Virus record (IMG/VR): IMGVR_UViG_3300014913_000067
Coordinates: 1-26,381 of that record
DNA: 26,381 bases
Direction: 5' to 3' (one strand)
From: a virus
Of the stretch, positions 12,639 to 25,404 are shown piece after piece. The notes under the pieces were generated by a model that was given only the letters and a program-made list of their open reading frames with translations, did no database searches and was not told the DNA's origin. The position numbers and the translations under genes are program-made. Numbering within the stretch: position 1 is the stretch's first letter; every line of letters begins with the position of its first letter.

Positions 12639-14834
12639 TCAATCTTTGCGGTACCTACGACCGCGCCAGCCACCGCCAGCACGAATCGGGTAGTCCTTCG
12701 CCCAATCCGGCAGACGGCACATAATGTCTTCGTATTCCTCGATCGAGCCAAAGCCGGTTAAAACTTCGCTGACGGGCTCATCGTGTACGTGGATAACGAT
12801 CGGATAGCCGGCCGCTTCGAGTTGCGGCATCGCGTGCGCCAGGATATCACGGGCGGTCGCTTGCGTAACGTTTTCTGCAAGCTTCCCACCGTAGGTGTCA
12901 AAACGGATCCAGCCTTTAGGGCCTTTCGTGTGGTCCGTATTCCAGCCCATAAACGTAATTTTTTCAACCGGGCGGCCGTACCGATCTGCCCCCGGGATAA
13001 GACGCGGCGTGTGATAACTCAGAAGCCGTCCGCTCGGAAGCCGACAGTATAAAACGTCTCCGCTTACGCCGTACGTTATGTCTCGGTACGAAAAACAATG
13101 ACCGGGGTTTTTAATAGCGTCAGTAGCGGCATCCCGTAACCCGTACCAAAATTTTACGATCATTGGAGACGCCTCACGCCAACGCCGGACGGCCGCGAGA
13201 ATTTTCGCGTCGTCGCCTATGTGTTTATCCGCACCGAAAGCGCGCCAGGCACCAACGGAACCTTGATAACCGCTGGCGAGTTCGGCCACTTTTCCGACCT
13301 TTTTTCTCATCGGGTGATGCTCGCCCGTTTCGGCTTTATGCTTCACAAAATCATCAAAAGGTACCCCGGTTATTTTCGCAGCGGACATTTCGTAAATCAT
13401 TCCGTGCGTGCGGAATACTTCTAGCCGCCACTCCTCGCCGGCCAGGTACGCCAGTACCACGGCTTCAATAGCGGAGTAATCCGAACTTATTAACTCATGG
13501 CCTGGCGCGGCGCAAAGGAGACCCCGTATACACCCGGAAACGGCCGCTACCGGGTCGCCGAAATAATATTCAACACAGTCCACGTTACCGGAGCTCGTTA
13601 CGTGTAACACGTCTTCCACGGCTTCGAGGCCCCATTCTACCGGGGCACTCGTGCCGGCGGACCCACACCAAGGGCACACGATCCATTTACGGGCGTGGTG
13701 GCGCCCACACCGGCAGCGGCTTACCGCGGGTCCGCTGTTCGGTAGGTTCTGGGGCTGTACGCCCCGGCCGGCCCAACGCCCCGTCCGCTCGGCGCCATGG
13801 TACATAAACAGCCCCCGAAGGCGACCGTCTCCACTCATACGGCGGGCCATAGCTTTGAGCTTTAGGACGCTCGCAGCGCCGAGGCTTGCCCGGATCTCAA
13901 GTACCCGGCGAACATCGGGGGGTAAATCGCCGGAAAGTAGACCGGCTACCGCGTCCGCGTCTAAGGTGTCCGTCTGGACCCCCCGCGCAGCGATCCAGGT
14001 CTTAATACTCGGTAGTTGTGTGGGGGCCATAACGGCGCCACCGGTAAGCCCGGGCAACTCCGAAACCGCCCGGGCGGTAGCTTGGCTTACGATCTTCTGA
14101 CAGTCGCGTAGGCTTCTTACGTCAACGCCTACGCCTTTATCATTTATCCGCTGGTCTTGCTTCCAGAGCGTGAGCTCTACCGGGTTTAGGTCCGGTGTCA
14201 GGGCCGACACTGCGGCCTCGGCTTTAATATCGCCGAGACAGTAAGCGTATAGTTTCGCCGCGTCTTCGGGGTCGTCCTCCGGACGTATTCGCCGAGCGGG
14301 GTTTTTCTTTGTCGGGTTTCGGGGCTTGCAGAATTTAGTTATCAGACGCCGGCCTTCGGTCATCTTTTGGTCTTCGGTCCCGAGAACTTTTGCAGCGTTG
14401 CCGAGGGCGCCGGGCAGTGCGTGCGCCCGGGCTTTAGCCATCGCGCAACGTAATTGCTCAAGCGGCAAGACCGGCCAGCCCATACGGGCGTTACAAACGT
14501 TTTTCCAGATCAGATATTCAAAGCCGCTGTTAAACGCTTCGATCAGGCCCCCGACGGCGATATGCGCGAAAAGGTCCACAGGTAACGGCCGGCCGGGTGC
14601 CCACAGGTGCGCCCCGCGGCTTGTTTTCAGATCATACGCGAGGCAGAGCACCTCTGTAGACGGGTGCTCCGAGTAAACCGCGGCCCCGACAGCACCAAGG
14701 CCGTGGGGTGGTGACGATACGATAGACAGCCATTTGTTTGTAGCCTCGTCGAAAACATACCCGGCTTCACTGTACGTCTCGAAATCCATTTCCGGGAGCT
14801 CGGTCGAGTAGCCGCAGCCTGCGGGGCGTCTCAC
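12639..14834 (-). CDS. Family A DNA polymerase with 3'-5' exonuclease domain
   Basis: A 731-residue replicative polymerase. GTG start at 14834-14832 overlaps the upstream stop as GTGA. Exonuclease motifs: D17-x-E19 (MDFETYS), N102...E106 (EAFNSGFE) and Y198-x3-D202. Polymerase motifs: motif A SDYSAIE (D452, E457), motif B R510...K515...Y523, motif C HVHDE (D685). All catalytic residues appear present, so proofreading and synthesis should both work. Between the palm start (RWAGRGVQPQNLP, ~353-365) and motif A there is a Cys4 cluster, C374-x-C376 and C387-x2-C390, a probable zinc ribbon found in this phage subgroup. It lies with an ssDNA-binding-like protein and a nuclease in one operon. Confidence 0.95.
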   Translation of the reverse strand: MRRPAGCGYSTELPEMDFETYSEAGYVFDEATNKWLSIVSSPPHGLGAVGAAVYSEHPSTEVLCLAYDLKTSRGAHLWAPGRPLPVDLFAHIAVGGLIEAFNSGFEYLIWKNVCNARMGWPVLPLEQLRCAMAKARAHALPGALGNAAKVLGTEDQKMTEGRRLITKFCKPRNPTKKNPARRIRPEDDPEDAAKLYAYCLGDIKAEAAVSALTPDLNPVELTLWKQDQRINDKGVGVDVRSLRDCQKIVSQATARAVSELPGLTGGAVMAPTQLPSIKTWIAARGVQTDTLDADAVAGLLSGDLPPDVRRVLEIRASLGAASVLKLKAMARRMSGDGRLRGLFMYHGAERTGRWAGRGVQPQNLPNSGPAVSRCRCGRHHARKWIVCPWCGSAGTSAPVEWGLEAVEDVLHVTSSGNVDCVEYYFGDPVAAVSGCIRGLLCAAPGHELISSDYSAIEAVVLAYLAGEEWRLEVFRTHGMIYEMSAAKITGVPFDDFVKHKAETGEHHPMRKKVGKVAELASGYQGSVGAWRAFGADKHIGDDAKILAAVRRWREASPMIVKFWYGLRDAATDAIKNPGHCFSYRDITYGVSGDVLYCRLPSGRLLSYHTPRLIPGADRYGRPVEKITFMGWNTDHTKGPKGWIRFDTYGGKLAENVTQATARDILAHAMPQLEAAGYPIVIHVHDEPVSEVLTGFGSIEEYEDIMCRLPDWAKDYPIRAGGGWRGRRYRKD

Positions 14835-15355
14835 AACCCTAACGCTTTATTAAGCGCCTCAGTTGAGACGGCGGGTAACTGCGGGGCCGTTTCGGTCGGT
14901 ACGTACGGGGAGGCTTCCGGCCACACCTCAAGTAATTTTTTGACGGTCGTTACGCTATGTAATACCGCCCGGATCTCCCGCCGCGTTTCGTCCTCGGTGT
15001 CGCCTAAGGCACGACGCGCTTGCGTCAAAGCGTTAAACTTACGCCATTGAGGCGTGTCCTTGGCGTACTCCTGCGCGCGGTGGGCGTCGATCGCGGCGAA
15101 TCGCCGGGCGGTGGTCATACGTAAGTGGACGCGCATTAACCCGGTAAAATGCGTGGGCACTCTATCCGTTGTGGCTAGAAAACCTTCGGGTAAACTATCC
15201 ATTAGTTCGCGTGTTTTCGGTGGGTGTGCGTGACGATATATTTCGTCCGCGAAATTCTCAAAACGACGCGTTAGTTTTTTTCGCTTCGGCCCGAACTGTT
15301 TTTCTATCAGGGCGTTTTCAATCTGTTTACGTAATTCTTTGTTGAGTCTCATCAT
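14831..15355 (-). CDS. Nmad5-like protein (nucleotide modification-associated domain), tentative
   Basis: A 174-residue protein starting MMRLNKELRKQIENALIEK, followed by a basic helical segment (FGPKRKKLTRRFENFADEIYRHAH) and SLPEGFLATTDRVPTHF. This layout (RL-x-K/N-x-x-R start, long helix, LPEGWL/F-like turn) resembles the Nmad5 family seen in phage genomes, for which a link to modified nucleotides was proposed from gene context. The match is from memory of the family's look, so keep it tentative. Start could be either of two adjacent ATG codons (15355 or 15352). No base-modifying enzyme is seen in the window. Confidence 0.5.
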   Translation of the reverse strand: MMRLNKELRKQIENALIEKQFGPKRKKLTRRFENFADEIYRHAHPPKTRELMDSLPEGFLATTDRVPTHFTGLMRVHLRMTTARRFAAIDAHRAQEYAKDTPQWRKFNALTQARRALGDTEDETRREIRAVLHSVTTVKKLLEVWPEASPYVPTETAPQLPAVSTEALNKALGL

Positions 15356-15426: not shown

Positions 15427-16314
15427 TTACGCCGTCGGGAGAGCTTGGATCTGCTCTGGGGTGAAACCCGCGTCCCGTAGTCGTGCGGCGGTGTACGGAT
15501 TACCGTCTGACGCGATATATTGCACCTCAACCACTGCCGGCGGGGCTGCAGCTACCGGGGGCGCGAGCGCTGCCGGCGGGGCTGCAGCTACGCCAGGCGG
15601 TTGCAGGAAGTCCGGGGCGGGCGTAACGCCGGGCAACGCGGCCGGTGCTGCGGTGGGCATCGGGGCGCCGGCGGGCGGCGTCAAACTGCAGCCCTGCGGG
15701 AGTGCGCCGACGGGGGCCGCACCGAAAGCGCTTTCCGCGTTGGGGCCCGTAACGGTACGGTCACCGTACCCGATAAACTGGATCATGGAGTGGTTGAGGT
15801 AAACACCCGGGTTTTGCTGGGACCCGTTCGCAGCAACGGTCCCAGCGATCCGGATATAATGGCCGCAGTCAACGTTCGCGGCGTCGTACTCAACAAAGGA
15901 CCCGGCCTCCTCTTTGTAGCATTTCGAGGCGAAGCCCGAAGAGAAACACAGGACCCAATGGCCCGGGAAGCCTTCCTTGTCGCAGGGACGCGCGCCCTTG
16001 GTGTTCGGTACCTGGCTATCGCCGTCGATAACCTTAAACGCGAATTTCGGGGCGGCCAGCTCTCCGGCCGCGTTAAATAACGTCGGGAAGCCGTCCCGGG
16101 CGGCTTGGTGGATTTGCGCCCACAATGCGGCGTACCCGGGGTCACTTTTCGGGATCGCGAGACCCATAAAATACTCAACCCGGGCCTGGCCCTCGTTCGG
16201 ACCGTGTTTGATCCGCAGCGGGTTGCCGTCCGCGTCTTTCGTTTGCGGTTCGCTGAGGCTGCCCATTACAAGGCGGCCGACAGGCGTAACGATCTGCGTA
16301 GCTGGTGTAGTCAT
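15427..16314 (-). CDS. Single-stranded DNA-binding-like protein (DUF2815/gp2.5-type) with Ala/Pro linker
   Basis: A 295-residue protein; ATG overlaps the stop of the nuclease gene as ATGA. Residues 1-200 look like the phage ssDNA-binding family: VTPVGRLVMGSLSEPQ, GLAIPKSDPGYAALWAQIHQAARDGFP, FAFKVIDGDS, PGHWVLCFSSGFASKC, then DCGHYIRIAGTVAANG and QNPGVYLNHSMIQFIGYG. Residues about 205-262 are an Ala/Pro-rich linker, and the last ~33 (YIASDGNPYTAARLRDAGFTPEQIQALPTA) form a small helical unit. T7 gp2.5-type proteins usually end in an acidic tail that recruits polymerase; none is seen here. Next to a family A polymerase and a nuclease, the role in replication and recombination is likely. Confidence 0.75.
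   Translation of the reverse strand: MTTPATQIVTPVGRLVMGSLSEPQTKDADGNPLRIKHGPNEGQARVEYFMGLAIPKSDPGYAALWAQIHQAARDGFPTLFNAAGELAAPKFAFKVIDGDSQVPNTKGARPCDKEGFPGHWVLCFSSGFASKCYKEEAGSFVEYDAANVDCGHYIRIAGTVAANGSQQNPGVYLNHSMIQFIGYGDRTVTGPNAESAFGAAPVGALPQGCSLTPPAGAPMPTAAPAALPGVTPAPDFLQPPGVAAAPPAALAPPVAAAPPAVVEVQYIASDGNPYTAARLRDAGFTPEQIQALPTA
15534..15591 (-). repeat. Two direct copies of a 22-bp unit in the Ala/Pro linker of the ssDNA-binding-like gene
   Basis: A 22-bp sequence beginning CTGCCGGCGG occurs exactly at 15534-15555 and again at 15570-15591 (period 36 bp, a whole number of codons). It codes for the Ala/Pro/Val repeat of the linker. Identity at DNA level suggests a recent in-frame duplication that changed linker length. 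Confidence 0.8.
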
Positions 16315-17486
16315 GACTTAAAAACCTTTCTGGCTTGGTCGGTGTTTTCAGGGATTAATTTAACCCCCGCGGTTGGTCGGTTGGCGTACAGGCTCATCAA
16401 GCTATCGTCAACGCCAAGCTTTCGGGCTTGCGTTGGGGTGATTAATTCGTCTTTTCGCAGCTCCCTCCCCAACAAATCGCCAAGTTTAGCGATCTCGGAG
16501 TATGGTTTAGTCCAAACTTCCCGGCCGGTGGTCGTTTCCATCCGGTAACCGGGGATTATCTCGCCGGCCACGGCCGCGGCTTTTAGTTGCTCCTCGAAAG
16601 CGATAGCCAGCGAACGCATATGCGATAACGAACGCGTTACGTATGTATACATTCTGGCCATTTGGGGCGTCGTAAGACTTAAGGGCGACACGTCCGCCAC
16701 GGATTCGTACAGATGCGGCCCGGCTTCCAAGGCCGCGGGGCAGGAGTGCCGAGCACGGCAGTACCGGCAGTGCGGACCGCTTCGGGTTTCCGGATTGGCC
16801 GCCAACGCCCGACGAGCGCCTTCGACCAACTCCATAAACATCCATTCAACAGATTTCAGAGTCGTACACCACTGCCGAATCGTCCCGTTCCGATGAAATC
16901 CATTTGGCTGGATAATCACAAGGTTGAGTCTCATCGCGTCCAGGGTTTCGGCCGGCAGCGTTAGCAAACCGAGCGTATCAAGTACGCCGTACGCGTAGTT
17001 AACGAGCTGCCAGTTTTCAGACACTTCCACCAGCCCATATCCGTTTTTCAGGTCTACAATAAACAGCTCGTTTGTCGCCTTATCATACAGGTAGAAATCC
17101 ACCGTACCGAAAGAATCCTTGTGGATCACTTCCGCTTCTACCCGGGCTTCAACCCCCAAGCAGTCGCCACCGAAGATCCGCCGGTCCTGCATGAGCTTGA
17201 TAACGTAGCTCGCGTACTCGGCGGCCGAATCGAACAACTCGTTATCAAAGATAATCCCGTTCGTAGCAGCGGTTTCAACGGTTTCGCTTCGGGACGGCAT
17301 CCCGGCGCCCCCGCAGGCCCCGGCTTCCACCATACGGGCGGCCAGCTCGTGCGCCGCGGTGCCTCGTTCGGCGGCTTCGGATCGTTCAGTTTCGGGGTAC
17401 ATTTGGTTCATTGCCACCCAGCCCGGGCAACCGTGCCGGGGCGCCCAGATATGAGCCGAGGACGGTGGTATCAGAGAGTGTGCCAT
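16311..17486 (-). CDS. DUF2800 Cas4/AddB-like PD-(D/E)XK nuclease
   Basis: Start at ATG 17486-17484, one base after the previous stop (TAA-A-ATG); a GTG at 17516 would overlap that gene by 29 bp. In the 391-residue product, H46 (RGTAAHELAARM), D130 (FGTVDFYLYD) and D145-x-K147 (FIVDLKNGYG) form the RecB-type nuclease core. One early Cys (C20, RHGCPGW) plus a late CRYCRARHSC cluster matches the one-plus-three Cys arrangement that holds a 4Fe-4S cluster in Cas4 and AddB. The likely role is end resection or recombination with the adjacent ssDNA-binding-like protein. DUF2800 assignment is from pattern; activity is inferred from intact motifs. Confidence 0.85.
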   Translation of the reverse strand: MAHSLIPPSSAHIWAPRHGCPGWVAMNQMYPETERSEAAERGTAAHELAARMVEAGACGGAGMPSRSETVETAATNGIIFDNELFDSAAEYASYVIKLMQDRRIFGGDCLGVEARVEAEVIHKDSFGTVDFYLYDKATNELFIVDLKNGYGLVEVSENWQLVNYAYGVLDTLGLLTLPAETLDAMRLNLVIIQPNGFHRNGTIRQWCTTLKSVEWMFMELVEGARRALAANPETRSGPHCRYCRARHSCPAALEAGPHLYESVADVSPLSLTTPQMARMYTYVTRSLSHMRSLAIAFEEQLKAAAVAGEIIPGYRMETTTGREVWTKPYSEIAKLGDLLGRELRKDELITPTQARKLGVDDSLMSLYANRPTAGVKLIPENTDQARKVFKS

Positions 17487-17487
17487 T

Positions 17488-18189
17488 TTACACGCCCCCG
17501 AATAGCCCCGCGTCAACCGACGCGATCAGATCCGGCCGCGAGGCCAGCAGGACCAGACTCGGGACATCGTGGGCGGCCAGAACCTCGGTAACCCGGTCAG
17601 GCTTGACCGTACCAGCCGTAATTTTCTGCATGAGATCGCCATAGGTGACCGTTTCGGGGGTCACGGGCGGTGCCGATTCAGGAGCCACGGGCGGTACTGG
17701 CGGGGGACCCACAACCATAAGAGCGTGCAGCTCGTCTTCAACCGAGGCGACCAACTCAGGTTCGACCCCACGCAGCTTTCGCCACTGGCCGCTTTTCGTT
17801 TTCGTCTTACCGCGCGAGTGGATTCGCTCATCCCACGGCAAGCCGTCGGCGTCCAGATCAACGTTCGCCGGCGGCGGGGGCGGCGGTGTGGCCGTCTCTT
17901 CGGTGGCCGACGGGGGTACACCCGGTATGAGTTGGCCCTCGGGGGTGGCACCGATAGGTACGACTCCCGGCGTTGCGAACGTTTCCGCGGGGGCGGGCGG
18001 CGTGGGTTCAAGCCCCAGGATCGTTGGGCCGGGGTCCGCGTCTTTGGGTCGGTCCAACAGGTCTTGCGCCTCGGCGGCGTACCCCGCGGAAGGTGCCGTT
18101 GCGGCATCTTCGGCCAGGCCCTCAAACATAGCGGCCACGGCTCGAAGAACCCCCGGCAACCTCGGAACTGAAATACTGATCTTTTCCAT
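17488..18189 (-). CDS. Pro-rich protein with a conserved LPWDERIH core, function unknown
   Basis: ATG at 18189-18187 is preferred since AAAGGTGGG lies just upstream; the GTG at 18198 has no room for a ribosome site. The 233-residue product has three parts: an N-terminal helix (1-45), a first Pro-rich linker (52-108), a short charged core (110-157: VDLDADGLPWDERIHSRGKT, SGQWRKLRGVE), a second Pro-rich linker (160-180) and a C-terminal helical unit (183-230). The core looks like one seen in other phage replication regions next to ssDNA-binding genes, but I know no function for it. As first gene of the operon it is made in front of nuclease and ssDNA-binding protein. Confidence 0.75.
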   Translation of the reverse strand: MEKISISVPRLPGVLRAVAAMFEGLAEDAATAPSAGYAAEAQDLLDRPKDADPGPTILGLEPTPPAPAETFATPGVVPIGATPEGQLIPGVPPSATEETATPPPPPPANVDLDADGLPWDERIHSRGKTKTKSGQWRKLRGVEPELVASVEDELHALMVVGPPPVPPVAPESAPPVTPETVTYGDLMQKITAGTVKPDRVTEVLAAHDVPSLVLLASRPDLIASVDAGLFGGV

Positions 18190-18220
18190 CTTTCCCACCT
18201 TTCAGTTAAAAAACTTTTTG

Positions 18221-18249
18221 TTGACGACATGGACAATAACCGTTAGTTT
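18221..18249 (+). promoter_or_regulatory. Possible promoter of the helicase operon
   Basis: On the plus strand, TTGACG (18221-18226) is followed after 17 bp by TAGTTT (18244-18249), a poor -10 box. It is the mirror image of the minus promoter. It may be weak or need an activator. Confidence 0.4.
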
Positions 18250-18261
18250 CCATTTCGTCAA
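18233..18261 (-). promoter_or_regulatory. Promoter of the minus replication operon
   Basis: On the minus strand, TTGACG (18261-18256), 17 bp, then TATTGT (18238-18233). Predicted start near 18226 gives a leader of about 37 bases with A/T-rich sequence and the AAAGGTGGG ribosome site. Five of six and four of six positions match consensus. Confidence 0.6.
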
Positions 18262-18286: not shown

Positions 18287-19942
18287 ATGCAACTAAGACC
18301 GTATCAAACTAATCTAAGGGACGCGATCTATGCCGAGTGGCAAACGGGTAACCGTAACGTGCTCGCAGTCGCCCCCACTGGATCAGGTAAAACGGTTCTA
18401 TTTTCGCATGTTATCCGGCATAACGCCGGGGCCGTGTGCGCGATAGCGCATCGCCAGGAGCTCGTGTCACAAATTTCCTTGGCGCTGGCCCGGGACGCCG
18501 TCCCGCACCGTATAATTGGCCCAAAAAACGTTGTGAAACTTTGCATAAATATTCACCTCACGGAAGTACGGCGAAGTTTTTACGATCCCGCGGCCGCGTG
18601 CGCCGTGGCCGGTGTGGATACCCTAACCCGGCGTAAAGAGTCGTTGGCCTCGTGGGCTAAAACGGTCACGCTCTGGGTTCAGGACGAGGCACACCACCTC
18701 GTCACGGGGAATAAGTGGGACTCCGCTGTTTCTATGTTCCCGAACGCGCGCGGGCTCGGCGTAACAGCTACGCCCGTACGGGCGGACGGGAAGGGCCTCG
18801 GCAGTCACACGGGCGGCGTCTTTGATGCGATGGCCGCCGGTCCGGATATGCGGGGTTTGATCACGGGGGGTTACCTGACGGACTACCGGATTTTTGCCCC
18901 GCCTTCAGACCTGGATTTATCCGGAGTGAAAATAAGCACCGCCACGGCGGACTATAGCCGGGTTGGCCTTAAATCGGCCGTCCGAAAGTCTTGTATCGTC
19001 GGTGACGTTGTCAAACATTACCAACGGATCACGCCCGGCCGGCTTGGGGTTACGTTCGCCACCGACGTAGAAACGGCTACAGATATAGCCGATCAGTTTA
19101 ACGCGGCCGGGGTGCCCGCCGGTATGGTTTGTGCGAAAACGCCAGACGCCGAACGGGTGGCTATCTTACGTCGGTTCCGACGTCGGGAGCTGTTACAGCT
19201 CGTAAACGTGGATATTTTCGGGGAGGGCTTTGACCTACCAGCTATTGAAGTCGTAAGCATGGCCCGGCCAACGCAATCGTATAACCTATACGTTCAGCAA
19301 TTCGGCCGGGCGTTGCGGCCTATGCCGGGCAAAAGCCACGCGGTCATAATTGACCACGTCGGTAACGTTGTCCGGCACGGCCTACCAGATTCCCCGAAAG
19401 AATGGGCCCTGGAACGTCGGGCCCGTAAAGCCCGACAGGACGACGGCGGAATACCTATCCGAGCGTGCCCAGAGTGTACCGCTGTTTATGAGCGATTCCA
19501 CGTAAGTTGTCCGTTTTGCGGCTATAAGCCTGAACCGGTGGCGCGCAGTAGCCCGGAATTTGTGGACGGGGATTTATGCGAGCTGGACGCCGAAACGTTG
19601 GCCCGGTTACGCGGGGACGTGGCGGCCGTCGACCAAGATACTGAGGCGTACCGGTCGCAGCTCATCGCCCGGAACGTGCCTTACGTTGGCCAACTCGCGC
19701 ACGTCAAACGTCACGCCGGGCGACAAGTCGCGCAGGGCGTGTTACGTTCAGCTATCGCCTGGTGGGCGGGGCATCAACGTGCGGCCGGCCACCCGGACTC
19801 GGAAAGTTACAGGCGGTTTTACCACATGTTTGGGGTTGACGTTCTGAGCGCGCAGGCGCTAAACACTGCGGCGGCTGAATCGTTAGCCGAACGCATAAAT
19901 TTAGGTCTTGGCCTAACGGCTACTAACAGAGGGGGTCGGTAA
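18287..19942 (+). CDS. SF2 DEAD/DEAH-type helicase with C-terminal zinc cluster
   Basis: A 551-residue helicase, first gene of the plus replication operon. Motif Q-like start LRPYQTNLRDAI; Walker A APTGSGKT (G32-K35-T36); DEAH box D133-E-A-H136; motif III T160-A-T162; motif VI QQFGRALRP (R341, R344). A Cys4 cluster, C394-x2-C397 and C408-x2-C411, follows the helicase core, and the last ~120 residues are helical. The architecture resembles the Res-subunit/RecG-like helicases common in phage replication modules. It likely unwinds forks or recombination intermediates with the adjacent VRR-NUC nuclease. ATG 18287 lies 25 bp after the palindrome; the upstream purine run (CCGGGGCGAACG) is a modest ribosome site. 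Confidence 0.92.
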   Translation: MQLRPYQTNLRDAIYAEWQTGNRNVLAVAPTGSGKTVLFSHVIRHNAGAVCAIAHRQELVSQISLALARDAVPHRIIGPKNVVKLCINIHLTEVRRSFYDPAAACAVAGVDTLTRRKESLASWAKTVTLWVQDEAHHLVTGNKWDSAVSMFPNARGLGVTATPVRADGKGLGSHTGGVFDAMAAGPDMRGLITGGYLTDYRIFAPPSDLDLSGVKISTATADYSRVGLKSAVRKSCIVGDVVKHYQRITPGRLGVTFATDVETATDIADQFNAAGVPAGMVCAKTPDAERVAILRRFRRRELLQLVNVDIFGEGFDLPAIEVVSMARPTQSYNLYVQQFGRALRPMPGKSHAVIIDHVGNVVRHGLPDSPKEWALERRARKARQDDGGIPIRACPECTAVYERFHVSCPFCGYKPEPVARSSPEFVDGDLCELDAETLARLRGDVAAVDQDTEAYRSQLIARNVPYVGQLAHVKRHAGRQVAQGVLRSAIAWWAGHQRAAGHPDSESYRRFYHMFGVDVLSAQALNTAAAESLAERINLGLGLTATNRGGR

Positions 19943-20629: not shown

Positions 20630-21136
20630 GTGAGTAAGGAAAAAATCCTGCAATGCGCGCGCGAAATGGCCGCCGATCCTGAAATTGGGGCTGTCAACAT
20701 AACCCGGGCGGACCTCTGCGAACGCGCCGGCGTACCGGAAGGGTCGTTCAACCGGATCGTTGGGGGGACGTTCGTTAACTTTATACGTGCGCTCGGACCA
20801 GACGACCCGATGCACGAGGGCCGGCTGATCACACGGCGGCGGGTTGCTCCTGAGGCGCGTCAGGGGTCGATCCTTGACGCGGCGCTGCGAGCTTCCGAGG
20901 CCGTCGGGTATATGAGCGTTACACGGCTCGGGGTGGCCGAAGCAGCGGGAATAAGCCCGGCGCTCGTTACGCGGTATTTCGCAAACATGCGGTATTTGCG
21001 AACCCAGATCATGCTTGAGGCCGTGCGGAAGGGTAACGTTGCGGTCGTTCTGCAGGGCCTGGCGGCCGGGGATAAAATAGCTCAGGGCGCCCCGCCGCAT
21101 TTACGTTCAGAAGCGGCTAAATCGATAACCAACTAA
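20630..21136 (+). CDS. Regulator-like protein with two TetR-type HTH units
   Basis: GTG start at 20630 with AAAGGCGAG upstream. The 168-residue product has two similar N-terminal-TetR units in tandem. The first spans residues 4-55 (KEKILQCAREMAADP, NITRADLCERAGVPEGSFNRIV); the second spans 79-128 (GSILDAALRASEAVG, SVTRLGVAEAAGISPALVTRYFANMRYLRTQI). Each has the helix-turn-helix followed by an aromatic/hydrophobic turn, but the ligand-binding domain of real TetR proteins is absent. The tail (140-168) is short and flexible. Likely binds DNA, perhaps as a replication initiator accessory or operon regulator; its place between nuclease and PrimPol does not settle this. Confidence 0.75.
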   Translation: MSKEKILQCAREMAADPEIGAVNITRADLCERAGVPEGSFNRIVGGTFVNFIRALGPDDPMHEGRLITRRRVAPEARQGSILDAALRASEAVGYMSVTRLGVAEAAGISPALVTRYFANMRYLRTQIMLEAVRKGNVAVVLQGLAAGDKIAQGAPPHLRSEAAKSITN

Positions 21137-21152: not shown

Positions 21153-23519
21153 ATGAAGACACTACCGGGAGCGCTCCGGCCGCTAGAAGCGTATCAGCAG
21201 TTCATCGTGTGGAAACGGGTCCAGCGCGCGGATCGCGTTGACAAGGTCCCGATCGATCACCGGACGGGGCGGCCGGCGAGCGCACACGATCCGGCTATCT
21301 GGCTCTCGGCCGCTGACGCGATAGCCGCAGCTGGACTCGCCGGCCTCGGTGTAGGCTTTACGTTTACCGAAACGGACCCGTTCTTTTTCCTGGATATCGA
21401 TCATTGCGCCGAGCCCGGCGGGTGGTCGCCTACAGCCCTCGGTATCCTAGCGGCGCTACATGGGGCGGCGGTTGAGGTATCACAGTCCGGCGAGGGCCTA
21501 CACGTCTTCGGCCGGACCGCAGCACTCGTGCACGGCACGAAAAACGAACTGCTCGGGCTTGAGCTCTACACGTCAAAGCGTTTCGTTGCCCTTACCGGGG
21601 ATCGGGCCATGGGGTCCGCAGACGTGGACCTAACCGCGCCCCTGGCGGCTATAGCGGCGCAACACTTCCCGCCGCCGGCAGCAAGCACGGCCCCCGCGGA
21701 GTGGACGACCGAGCCCGCCGAGGCCGGCGCGGGCGTCTCCGACGATAAGGACCTGATTAAACGGGCCCTACGGTCTAAATCAGCGGGCGGAGCCTTCGGG
21801 GCAAAATGTACTTTTGCCGACCTATGGGCCGCGGATCCGGATCGCCTCGCGCAGTTCTACCCCGCGAAGAGCCCCCATAAAGCATACGGCGATAGCGAAG
21901 CAGACGCGGCCTTAGCTCAACATTTAGCCTTCTGGACCGGCGGGGACTGCGAACAGATCCACCGTCTTATGTGGGCCTCTGGCCTGGTGCGTGAAAAATG
22001 GGGCCGTGAAGACTATTTATATCGCACGATTACCAACGCGGCCGGGGTGCAAACTCAATATTATACGCCCAAAGAAAACCGCGAACGAATCGAAGAGGCC
22101 GGCCCAACGCTCGGAACGTCGGGCCCCGAAAAGCTCGCGGGCTATCAGTACCTCGGGCCGGACGCGCAGATAGACCATTTCCGCGGGTGTGTTTACGTGC
22201 AAAACCTACACCGGGCCTTTACGCCGAACGGGGCGCTCCTTAAATCAGATCAATTTAACGCTACGTACGGGGGCTACGAATTTCAGCGAGACGACGCCGG
22301 CAAGGCGTCCACGCGGAAAGCATGGGAAGCGTTTACCGAATCCCAAGTTGTACGATACCCTAAAGCCGAAGGTATCTGTTTCCGGCCGGAGCTGCCGTCT
22401 GGGGGCATCATTACCGAAGAGGGCGCCCGCCTCGTTAATATCTATGTGCCTATCGAAACGCCACGCGCGCCGGGCGACCCGGCGCCGTTTCTGGATCATC
22501 TGGCCAACGTCCTGCCGGTCGAACAGGACCAAGCTATATTGCTGGCCTACCTTGCGGCGTGCGTCCAGCACAAAGGCGTCAAATTCCAATGGTGCCCTCT
22601 TATCCAAGGGGCGGACGGTAACGGCAAAACCCTCTTTACGCGTTGCGTGGCTTACGCCGTCGGAAACCGCTACACCCATTTACCCAAAGCGGCGGATATC
22701 GATAATAAATTCAACGCCTGGATAAGCGGAAAGCTGTTTATCGGGGTTGAAGACGTCTTTGTCCCCGAAAGTAAACGGGAGGTGCTGGAAGCCCTAAAAC
22801 CGCTCATAACTAATGATCGGATAGAGATCCACGCGAAAGGCGCGGATCAAACGACCGGGGACAATAGAGCTAATTTCGTCCTAAACGCTAACCGACGCGA
22901 CGCCATACAAAAGACCCGTAATGACCGACGTTTCGCCGTCTTTTTCACCGCGCAGCAACGCATAGACGACCTGGCCCGGGATGGCTTGGACGGCGATTAC
23001 TTCCCCCGGCTTTACGCTTGGCTACGTGGCGGTGGTTACGCCATCGTAGCGGACTATCTAGCTACGTATCCGATTCCGGAGCATTTAAACCCCGCGGGGG
23101 CCTGCCATCGGGCGCCGCAAACGTCAAGTACCGACGCGGCTGTATCTGAAAGCCTCGGAAGTATCGAACAAGAAATACTGGAACTTGTGGAGGAGGGGAA
23201 GCCCGGGTTTGCTGGTGGCTGGATATCGTCGATGGCGATTGAACGTATGCTCGCGAGTCTTCGGGCGGACCGGGTTATCCCACGTAACCGCCGCCGTGAA
23301 ATGCTGCAGAGCCTCGGTTACGACTGGCACCCGGCGTTACCGGGCGGCCGAACGCCGAAGGTGCTCATGGAGGAGGGCGGCAAACCGCGGCTGTTCGTTC
23401 GGTCGGGGCACCCGGATCAGATGATAGCTGACGCCGGAGAGGCCGTCTTAGCGTATCTGAGGGCCCAACAACGGGACGAATCAAAGGCCCCCAACGGGTT
23501 TTTAGCGGCCCGGGGGTGA
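21153..23519 (+). CDS. PrimPol-helicase fusion (primase-polymerase plus DUF5906 SF3-type helicase)
   Basis: A 788-residue protein. The N-terminal AEP (PrimPol) domain, about 1-175, shows D81-x-D83 (FLDIDHC) and S110-x-S-G113-x-G-x-H117 (SQSGEGLHVFG), the metal- and nucleotide-binding residues of the NrS-1-type family. A helical bundle (~200-300) follows, then a linker and an SF3-like ATPase (~440-640) with Walker A GADGNGKT (G486-K492-T493), a B-like strand LFIGVEDVF, and a NRRDAIQKTRNDRRFAVF sensor/arginine region. The C-terminus (~670-788) looks like a winged helix. It would prime and unwind the phage DNA, feeding the family A polymerase. ATG 21153 follows the regulator by 16 bp with no strong ribosome site. 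Confidence 0.92.
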   Translation: MKTLPGALRPLEAYQQFIVWKRVQRADRVDKVPIDHRTGRPASAHDPAIWLSAADAIAAAGLAGLGVGFTFTETDPFFFLDIDHCAEPGGWSPTALGILAALHGAAVEVSQSGEGLHVFGRTAALVHGTKNELLGLELYTSKRFVALTGDRAMGSADVDLTAPLAAIAAQHFPPPAASTAPAEWTTEPAEAGAGVSDDKDLIKRALRSKSAGGAFGAKCTFADLWAADPDRLAQFYPAKSPHKAYGDSEADAALAQHLAFWTGGDCEQIHRLMWASGLVREKWGREDYLYRTITNAAGVQTQYYTPKENRERIEEAGPTLGTSGPEKLAGYQYLGPDAQIDHFRGCVYVQNLHRAFTPNGALLKSDQFNATYGGYEFQRDDAGKASTRKAWEAFTESQVVRYPKAEGICFRPELPSGGIITEEGARLVNIYVPIETPRAPGDPAPFLDHLANVLPVEQDQAILLAYLAACVQHKGVKFQWCPLIQGADGNGKTLFTRCVAYAVGNRYTHLPKAADIDNKFNAWISGKLFIGVEDVFVPESKREVLEALKPLITNDRIEIHAKGADQTTGDNRANFVLNANRRDAIQKTRNDRRFAVFFTAQQRIDDLARDGLDGDYFPRLYAWLRGGGYAIVADYLATYPIPEHLNPAGACHRAPQTSSTDAAVSESLGSIEQEILELVEEGKPGFAGGWISSMAIERMLASLRADRVIPRNRRREMLQSLGYDWHPALPGGRTPKVLMEEGGKPRLFVRSGHPDQMIADAGEAVLAYLRAQQRDESKAPNGFLAARG

Positions 23520-23566: not shown

Positions 23567-23785
23567 TCACCCTCGCCAGTGACGCCCCAACAGTTTAAAA
23601 AACCGAGAACTGAGAGTGCTCGGGACGTAAAACGGGCGCTCACCCCAAGGATTCCGCTCAGAGCAATACACGTCGTATTTGAGCTTCCCCGTGACGGAGT
23701 TTGTATCCAGGGCCCCGGCTTGGTACGAACAAAGATGGGTCCCGCGGCCTTTTGCGTGAAACACGCATTTCGCGCAAATATTCAT
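23567..23785 (-). CDS. Small Cys-rich putative zinc-binding protein
   Basis: A 72-residue protein; ATG overlaps the upstream stop as ATGA. It opens MNICAKCVFHAKGRGTHLC and continues to YDVYCSERNPWG: C4-x2-C7-x2-H10 ... C19 ... C41, a pattern shared by many small phage proteins of unknown role (N-x-C-x2-C-x-H/F ... C ... VTG ... C ... R). A structural zinc is likely. It is the last gene of the minus accessory operon. Confidence 0.75.
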   Translation of the reverse strand: MNICAKCVFHAKGRGTHLCSYQAGALDTNSVTGKLKYDVYCSERNPWGERPFYVPSTLSSRFFKLLGRHWRG

Positions 23786-23952
23786 GGCTTTACGCCCCCC
23801 TCGGTTAAGATACGTTCAGCTAACAGGATAACCGTCCTGCTCGGCTTCTGTCCCCGTAGGTACCTGCTAATTTGAGCGGGGTCTACCCCCAACGCTTCGG
23901 CGACCGCTTTCTGACTACCGAGGCGGGCTACTAATTGTTTGACTAGATCCAT
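23782..23952 (-). CDS. Minimal HTH DNA-binding protein (Cro/YdaS-like, 56 residues)
   Basis: ATG at 23952-23950, two bases after the pentapeptide gene stop; longer upstream reading is possible but antisense-like and overlaps that gene. The 56-residue product is almost only a helix-turn-helix: MDLVKQLVARLGSQKAVAEALGV then DPAQISRYLRGQKPSRTVILLAERIL. SQKAVAEALGVDPAQISRYLRG is a classic lambda-repressor/Cro-type HTH. At Cro size, it could repress its own operon through the 13-bp palindrome at 24934-24946, or one of the other palindromes in the window. The link is inference. Confidence 0.8.
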   Translation of the reverse strand: MDLVKQLVARLGSQKAVAEALGVDPAQISRYLRGQKPSRTVILLAERILTEGGVKP

Positions 23953-24917: not shown

Positions 24918-24946
24918 AATATAACCCATCTAATTGCGGACCGCAA
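24918..24946 (-). promoter_or_regulatory. Promoter with 13-bp palindromic operator for the accessory operon
   Basis: On the minus strand TTGCGG (24946-24941), 17 bp, TATATT (24923-24918); the -10 box matches five of six. The -35 region is part of a perfect palindrome, TTGCGG-A-CCGCAA (24934-24946), so a repressor bound here would block polymerase. The leader to the first gene is about 35-40 bases. Confidence 0.55.
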
Positions 24947-25036
24947 GTAAAATAATACTAATTATTATAGACGTAAATTAACGCTAACGTTAGTTCGTGG
25001 TGCTACGGCGGTTAATTAACGCTAAGTTAGCCCGGA

Positions 25037-25117
25037 GGCCCGTTCGGGCCAAACCGTTCGGGCCACGGGTAAAGCCTTAAGCGGCTTGGGGTTACGGCTG
25101 CCGCGGCCCGTGGCCCG
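25037..25117. repeat. Nested GC-rich hairpins with GGCCCG/CGGGCC motifs
   Basis: GGCCCG-TT-CGGGCC (25037-25050) is a tight 6-bp hairpin. CGGGCCACGGG (25059-25069) pairs with CCCGTGGCCCG (25107-25117), an exact 11-bp inverted repeat. Inside its loop, AAGCC/GGCTT (25072-25076 / 25083-25087) or GCGGC/GCCGC (25081-25085 / 25099-25103) can pair. Confidence 0.7.
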
Positions 25118-25206
25118 TACCGGCCCCTACCCCCGCCATATCCCCCGCGGGCATGCCCCATAATTACGTACGTACCCTTATTATATACACACAATATAAC
25201 CATACA

Positions 25207-25279
25207 TAAGGGCATAAGAGATATATAAGGGGGTAAGGGGTTGCTAAATAATAACTTACGAGTGGCCCGTACGTAAGGG
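25207..25279 (+). repeat. Iteron-like TAAGGG repeats in AT-rich DNA
   Basis: TAAGGG occurs at 25207, 25226, 25234 and 25274, and inverted (CCCTTA) at 25175-25180. Four direct copies in 73 bp in a mostly AT-rich setting. Confidence 0.5.
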
Positions 25280-25292
25280 CCGTACGGGCCAC
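25262..25292. other. Perfect 12-bp inverted repeat (strong stem-loop)
   Basis: GTGGCCCGTACG (25262-25273) and CGTACGGGCCAC (25281-25292) are exact reverse complements with a 7-base loop. No T-tract follows on either strand, so it is more likely a structural or protein-binding element than a terminator. Confidence 0.7.
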
Positions 25293-25404
25293 ACTAGGTC
25301 GGGGCTGGACGTAAGACCAAGCGGCACAAAGACCTATAATTTTTTGGTTCGGGCCGGGGTTCGGGCCGCTTGACATAAAGAACAATCTGCGGCAAGGTGT
25401 GGGT

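Follow-up and report, generated by a model that had tools for sequence, protein, structure and literature searches.

The two replication operons of the virus examined here probably diverge from one compact sigma70-type promoter that works in both directions and is under the control of a TetR-type helix-turn-helix (HTH) protein encoded by the phage itself, a proposal drawn from sequence comparison. The window, that is the whole 26.4-kb stretch of an IMG/VR virus record that was analysed, carries a leftward operon with a phrog_11133 gene and genes for a DUF2800 nuclease, an Enc34-type single-stranded DNA-binding protein (SSB), an Nmad5-type protein and a family A DNA polymerase, and a rightward operon with genes for a helicase, an endonuclease-like protein, a dual-HTH regulator and a primase-polymerase. 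The promoter pair sits in the gap between the minus-strand gene start at 18189 (ATG; alternatively GTG at 18198) and the helicase ATG at 18287 (Table 1). The gene for the Nmad5-type (nucleotide modification associated) protein lies directly before that of the polymerase in the leftward operon.

Table 1. Positions of the promoter elements, predicted operators and neighbouring genes in the window
Feature	Position	Strand	Detail
Imperfect palindrome with both promoters	18221-18261		17/20 pairs, centre 18241
-35 box TTGACG, rightward (helicase/primase) promoter; also outer half of left operator	18221-18226	+	TTGAC end kept in relatives
-10 box TAGTTT, rightward promoter	18244-18249	+	spacer 17, 3/6
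-35 box TTGACG, leftward (polymerase-side) promoter	18256-18261	-	
-10 box TATTGT, leftward promoter	18233-18238	-	spacer 17, 4/6
A/T tract GTTAAAAAACTTTTT, UP-element-like	18205-18219	+	directly upstream of plus -35; from sequence, function putative
Predicted left operator TTGACGACATGGACAA	18221-18236	+	9/10 to TTGAC-N6-GTCAA; overlaps plus -35 and minus -10
Weaker inverted second copy TTGACGAAATGGAAAC	18246-18261	-	13/16 identical to left copy; 7/10 to TTGAC-N6-GTCAA
Family A DNA polymerase	12639-14834	-	
Nmad5-type protein	14831-15355	-	
Enc34-type ssDNA-binding protein	15427-16314	-	
DUF2800 / PD-(D/E)XK nuclease	16311-17516	-	Pfam E 3.6e-40
Leftward operon gene 1, unknown function (phrog_11133)	17488-18189	-	ATG 18189, AAAGGTGG upstream
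DEAD/DEAH helicase, rightward operon gene 1	18287-19942	+	
Dual-HTH regulator, candidate switch repressor	20630-21136	+	TetR_N E 2.3e-9 (C-terminal) and N-terminal HTH-like part
Primase-polymerase/helicase	21153-23519	+	NrS-1 HBD, DUF5906

The sequence of 18221-18261 is TTGACGACATGGACAATAACCGTTAGTTTCCATTTCGTCAA. As the first-pass annotation had stated, both strands read TTGACGA-x-ATGGA-x-A-x-TAAC inward from the ends, and each half carries its own -35 box, the minus half with TATTGT at 17 bp. The arms pair at 17 of 20 positions. This is the best 41-bp palindrome anywhere in the window, and its symmetry is beyond chance for this window: 60 Markov simulations, with gaps of 0-4 allowed, gave at most 16 pairs against the 17 of the real sequence. 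One degenerate 20-mer fits both arms and is found nowhere else in the window at up to 3 mismatches (0.03 expected). Both -35/-10 pairs fit in these 41 bp, so that a single polymerase footprint takes in the sigma70 elements of either strand. The two promoters point apart yet overlap fully, with each -35 box approximately at the predicted start of the other promoter, a geometry that should keep two polymerases from binding at once. The predicted starts fall near the ends of the palindrome, and neither transcript would therefore contain it. This geometry, together with -35/-10 spacing that is conserved in many relatives, upholds the earlier description of two divergent, mutually exclusive promoters in one site of about 41 bp.

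A consensus promoter scanner flags the minus promoter and not the plus promoter. Lone hits of this scanner occur at chance frequency (3 found versus 3.0 expected in 8 kb), and they were rejected as stand-alone evidence for promoters; the pair exceeds chance because relatives conserve its arrangement. The accompanying prediction that minus transcription would be the stronger is left uncertain. In its favour, TATTGT outscores the weak plus box TAGTTT as a hexamer; against it, the A/T tract lies just upstream of the plus -35 box, and TAGTTT is a single change away from TAGTAT, a -10 common in sister promoters and found at the regulator genes of dual-HTH genomes. A further likeness of the window's plus promoter is to L143, another dual-HTH genome, whose promoter at the regulator gene agrees with it at 24 of 30 bases as counted by eye.

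Relatives were reached via the helicase and comprised 57 viral-contig loci, then more loci, cultured phages and some bacterial bins; the window's DUF2800 or HTH protein as sole query returned zero relatives, whereas alignments used as queries succeeded. Read side by side, many relatives have TTGAC and GTCAA 41-44 bp apart before the helicase. When such pairs were counted across 139 dereplicated loci (1.2 Mb) with no prior choice of place, they peaked at 40-45 bp end to end, with 82 cases against a background of about 2 per length and a mean of 7.4 (highest 33) for permuted control words. Of 137 loci, 66 have an exact pair in the 1.3 kb before the helicase, as against 5 of 569 equally long control stretches; roughly one locus in two thus lacks the exact element there. 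The -10 signature (A2 and T6) is present at spacer 17 in 49% of plus and 58% of minus promoters and is less frequent at other spacers, and where both -10 boxes score well they are direct neighbours, with 2-6 bp between them (5 bp in the window). Because the TTGAC ends and the spacer-17 -10 boxes are kept while the inner symmetry is at background, what is conserved would be a bidirectional promoter and not a 41-bp palindrome, and the predicted promoter layer has good support from sequence. The leftward -10 box of the Jedunavirus relatives is poor (CACCAC), so that bidirectionality may not be universal.

The fate of the palindrome itself in relatives is quite different. The first-pass annotation had taken it for an operator and suggested looking for it in related phages, where the full 41 bp proved not to be conserved: a search of viral contigs for close relatives with the palindrome pattern gave zero matches, and in 78 distinct elements symmetry past TTGAC is at background save for the -10 positions. 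Among 82 elements, inner symmetry at 7 of 8 positions occurs in the window's copy alone. A full-palindrome operator as a feature of the family was accordingly rejected, since the inner positions are at background, and the unit that does recur and has the look of a regulator site is 16 bp long, TTGAC-N6-GTCAA, at one or both ends. The same evidence bears on the notion that the palindrome is a replication origin or a cruciform-forming site between the replication operons, which is scarcely credible: replication genes do flank it, but relatives keep the promoter boxes rather than the palindrome, the cumulative GC skew makes no sharp turn there, and the AT-rich gap at 24950-25390 is a better origin candidate. 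This long gap, between a minus gene starting at 24946 and a plus gene at 25399, contains AT runs, palindromes similar to GTACGTAC and recurring GGGCC and CGCTAA words, and is a possible replication origin or packaging region.

The 16-bp unit forms a second, sharper peak of the pair count, with 71 cases at N6, 1 to 4 at N4, N5 and N7, and none at N8; its consensus is TTGAC G (A/G) N N (C/T) C GTCAA. Loci with a TetR-type gene contain 66 copies, where 0.75 would be expected from the average of control spacers, while loci without a detected TetR-type gene contain 5 and 40 distant loci contain 1. The motif looks like the operator of the phage's own TetR-type HTH protein, and because it follows the phage gene, a RutR-like protein of the host is an unlikely reader. 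It also stands before the regulator gene of relatives, where 37 of 97 loci have a match of at least 9/10. Thirteen dual-HTH genomes have a site at this gene whose inner half scores 3/5 or better, and in all of them a -10 box (A2 and T6) follows TTGAC by exactly 17 bp; with such a -10-like hexamer (e.g. TAGTAT) at this distance, the operator half would serve as a -35 box at regulator genes as well. A further scan, which shares some of these genomes, covered 35 dual-HTH loci and placed a site of at least 7/10 in 28 of them, almost always at -50 to -70. Within genomes, the regulator-gene site and the divergent-promoter site covary, agreeing on average at 7.1 versus 5.9 of 11 variable positions, as in Scuro with TTGACAATAATGTCAG and TTGACAATAATGTCAT; none of 5000 permutations reached the observed mean in a test that carries no phylogeny correction and includes L023, where both sites are one element. 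Such covariation points to one protein reading both.

At the divergent promoter, 38 of 82 elements have on the helicase side an operator whose inner half scores 4/5 or better, where arithmetic predicts about 1.6%; such an operator typically reads (A/T)TGAC-N6-GTCAA, and its inner half overlaps the rightward -10 box. One and the same site would thus cover the leftward -35 box and the -10/start region of the rightward promoter. The better operator is the right one in 38 relatives and the left one in 6, and the window, with its better copy on the polymerase side, is the reverse of most. No operator site was found upstream of the window's own dual-HTH gene, and the window's regulator would therefore be controlled through the bidirectional promoter. 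The predicted operator-regulator link is well supported for the family and only indirectly for the window. In elements of length 41 (the window, L014, L016, L029 and L053) the -10 box frequently reads TATTGT; part of it coincides with the operator half TTGAC (TATTGAC), and it looks like a compromise between promoter and operator. Relatives (for example at L061:1309, L061:9405, L064:553 and L068:4349) carry additional perfect TTGAC-N6-GTCAA copies ahead of other genes, among them a gene of the SSB region and a gene that follows the primase, and these copies suggest a small regulon of the TetR-type protein. In dual-HTH loci such as L002, L009, L053 and L084-L086, among others, the operator at the regulator gene has G-(T/G)-C-A-N instead of GTCAA as its second half, which may be the target of a second, different HTH. 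Within the window, TTGACGACACCGACAA at 1488-1503 is identical to the left operator at 14 of 16 positions; it lies at the start of a structural gene (ATG 1482), inside coding sequence, and may be a chance match.

These properties of the motif also weigh on the simplest alternative, a bidirectional sigma70 promoter and nothing more, in which TTGAC is kept as a -35 box and the two orientations compete with no phage regulator involved. In relatives the promoters of both strands do have the right -35/-10 spacing, bacteria commonly use bidirectional promoters (PMC12825309), and the window's match to the operator is imperfect. A need for -35 boxes explains neither the exact N6 spacing (71 cases versus 0-4 at neighbouring spacers), nor the concentration of the motif in loci with a TetR-type gene, nor the helicase-side inner half kept in 38 of 82 elements, nor the covariation with the regulator-gene site, and we consider this account unlikely.

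The first-pass annotation had further proposed one regulator for both operons and had named two proteins for binding assays. The idea of a single regulator is supported, and the 168-aa dual-HTH protein is the best candidate, as the conserved operator tracks the TetR-type gene. Its C-terminal half matches TetR_N (PF00440, E 2.3e-9) at residues 81-123, and the PDB sequence matches listed belong to the TetR type, among them RutR and Mce3R (9b7y), a double-TetR repressor. The AlphaFold model (mean pLDDT 85.5, pTM 0.57) consists of two helical HTH-like parts; the linker between them is predicted poorly, and its pLDDT below 50 leaves the relative placement of the two HTHs unfixed. The N-terminal half is a predicted HTH-like helical bundle that matches TetR_N in only 1 of 15 homologues. 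A full C-terminal helical domain for ligand binding and dimerisation is absent from the model, in which the HTH and the helix after it are followed by only about 30 residues with short helices; the single-HTH relatives are about as short. The best Foldseek matches of the model are TetR-family proteins at E above 0.01, and the two parts of the model are not placed meaningfully. A TetR-type gene was detected in 114 loci and has two main forms, a single-HTH form mostly of about 92-127 aa and a dual-HTH form mostly of about 164-171 aa. The phages phiPLPE, CP-T1 and 138 have been noted to carry tetR-like genes (PMC3391216). For the other protein named, the 56-residue Cro/CI-type HTH protein (23782-23952), no evidence of a regulatory role was found; it has an HTH_3 domain, but the conserved operator tracks the TetR-type gene and nothing ties it to the small protein, so that regulation of the site by it is hardly plausible.

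The dual-HTH form raises a further alternative, in which the whole 41 bp is one extended operator (16 + 9 + 16 bp): the dual-HTH protein would form a dimer, whose four HTHs would together recognise a pair of asymmetric 16-bp sites in inverted orientation. The window's arms agree at 13 of 16 positions and its inner symmetry is unlike that of all other elements, the window's regulator is of the dual-HTH form, regulator-gene sites are asymmetric in dual-HTH genomes, and the double-TetR protein Mce3R binds non-palindromic sites (PMC11667970). This symmetry belongs, however, to one genome that was chosen for its palindromic look; in relatives the end-to-end length varies from 40 to 45 bp and the regulator-gene sites are single 16-bp units; and the model does not fix how the HTHs are placed. 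Nor does the share of perfect sites differ significantly between single- and dual-HTH genomes (Fisher p 0.17), and a clean split of perfect operators between the two forms was rejected on the same test. As an account of the site, the extended operator appears very unlikely.

Among known systems, the closest published parallel would be the Escherichia coli PacrA/acrR promoter, where the TetR-family auto-repressor AcrR represses both RNAs of a bidirectional promoter (PMC12825309). As predicted for the phage, two opposed promoters share one polymerase-binding region under a TetR-type regulator. E. coli bidirectional promoters partly share their -10 element, with common start-site distances of 18, 10 and 23 bp (PMC12825309). 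The window departs from this Warman/Grainger type of bidirectional promoter, with a shared -10 and starts 10, 18 or 23 bp apart: its -10 boxes are separate (5 bp gap), its predicted starts lie about 30 bp apart, each -35 box is at about the predicted start of the opposing promoter, and the candidate repressor comes from the phage and lacks an obvious ligand domain. The divergent overlapping promoters of Tn10 tetR/tetA, repressed in both directions by a TetR-family protein, offer a similar predicted arrangement, but Tn10 has two tet operators of another sequence and a ligand-inducible, full-length TetR. Lambda Cro at OR, which acts on divergent promoters through multiple 17-bp operators between them, is alike in role only, as the small early repressor proposed here, and belongs to an unrelated HTH family. 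The consensus of RutR is TTGACCANNTGGTCAA, with the same half-site TTGAC and the same 6-bp spacing as the phage motif, and the sequence matches listed for the regulator include RutR; RutR, however, is a protein of the host that senses pyrimidines, and the phage N6 is not CANNTG. RutR of E. coli is itself a TetR-family protein with a 16-bp palindromic site (PMC10891134), which makes it a helpful parallel. Mce3R has two non-identical TetR-type HTHs in one chain and a non-palindromic operator (PMC11667970); the phage protein may resemble it in having two HTHs in one chain, the N-terminal one HTH-like by prediction, and perhaps in reading a non-palindromic operator, but is only 168 aa long, whereas Mce3R has a ligand-binding domain and 25-bp sites.

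In the switch that we favour, the TTGAC -35 box would double as the outer half of the 16-bp operator, whose inner half would lie in the spacer of the same promoter and overlap the opposing -10 box. A repressor at either end would block one promoter at its -35 box and the other at its -10/start region, so that one 16-bp site could silence both operons; in the window, the left operator is predicted to be strong and the right copy weak. Without repressor, RNA polymerase would occupy the site in one orientation at a time, and early transcription would yield the replication proteins together with the repressor, which is encoded in the rightward operon and would feed back on its own expression. The repressor would then occupy the operator and shut both directions, a Cro-like negative feedback on early replication genes through which one phage protein probably damps the entire replication machinery. 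That the regulator would repress and not activate is suggested by the position of the site, and the start sites, protein binding and timing in this scheme are likewise inferred. A more elaborate version, in which a single chain with two different HTHs reads an asymmetric 16-bp operator and a dimer on two facing operators, each fused to a -35 box, locks the whole 41-bp promoter, rests on the window's unique inner symmetry and is quite unlikely; if it were true, the same bases would serve both as promoter boxes and as operator half-sites.

No description of early gene control in these phages was found in the literature searched, nor was a paper on the operator of this phage regulator. With a regulator candidate, an operator for it and a principal target, the proposed switch provides a control circuit that can be tested across a broad phage group, which includes Jedunavirus, Peatvirus, Acinetobacter phage Scuro, Shewanella phage SppYZU01 and many uncultured members. 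The design would be an economical one: with a -35 box that is also an operator half-site, promoter strength and repressor affinity could not be tuned independently. The presence of single- and dual-HTH forms in one family may moreover offer a natural series from a homodimeric repressor to a single-chain asymmetric one.
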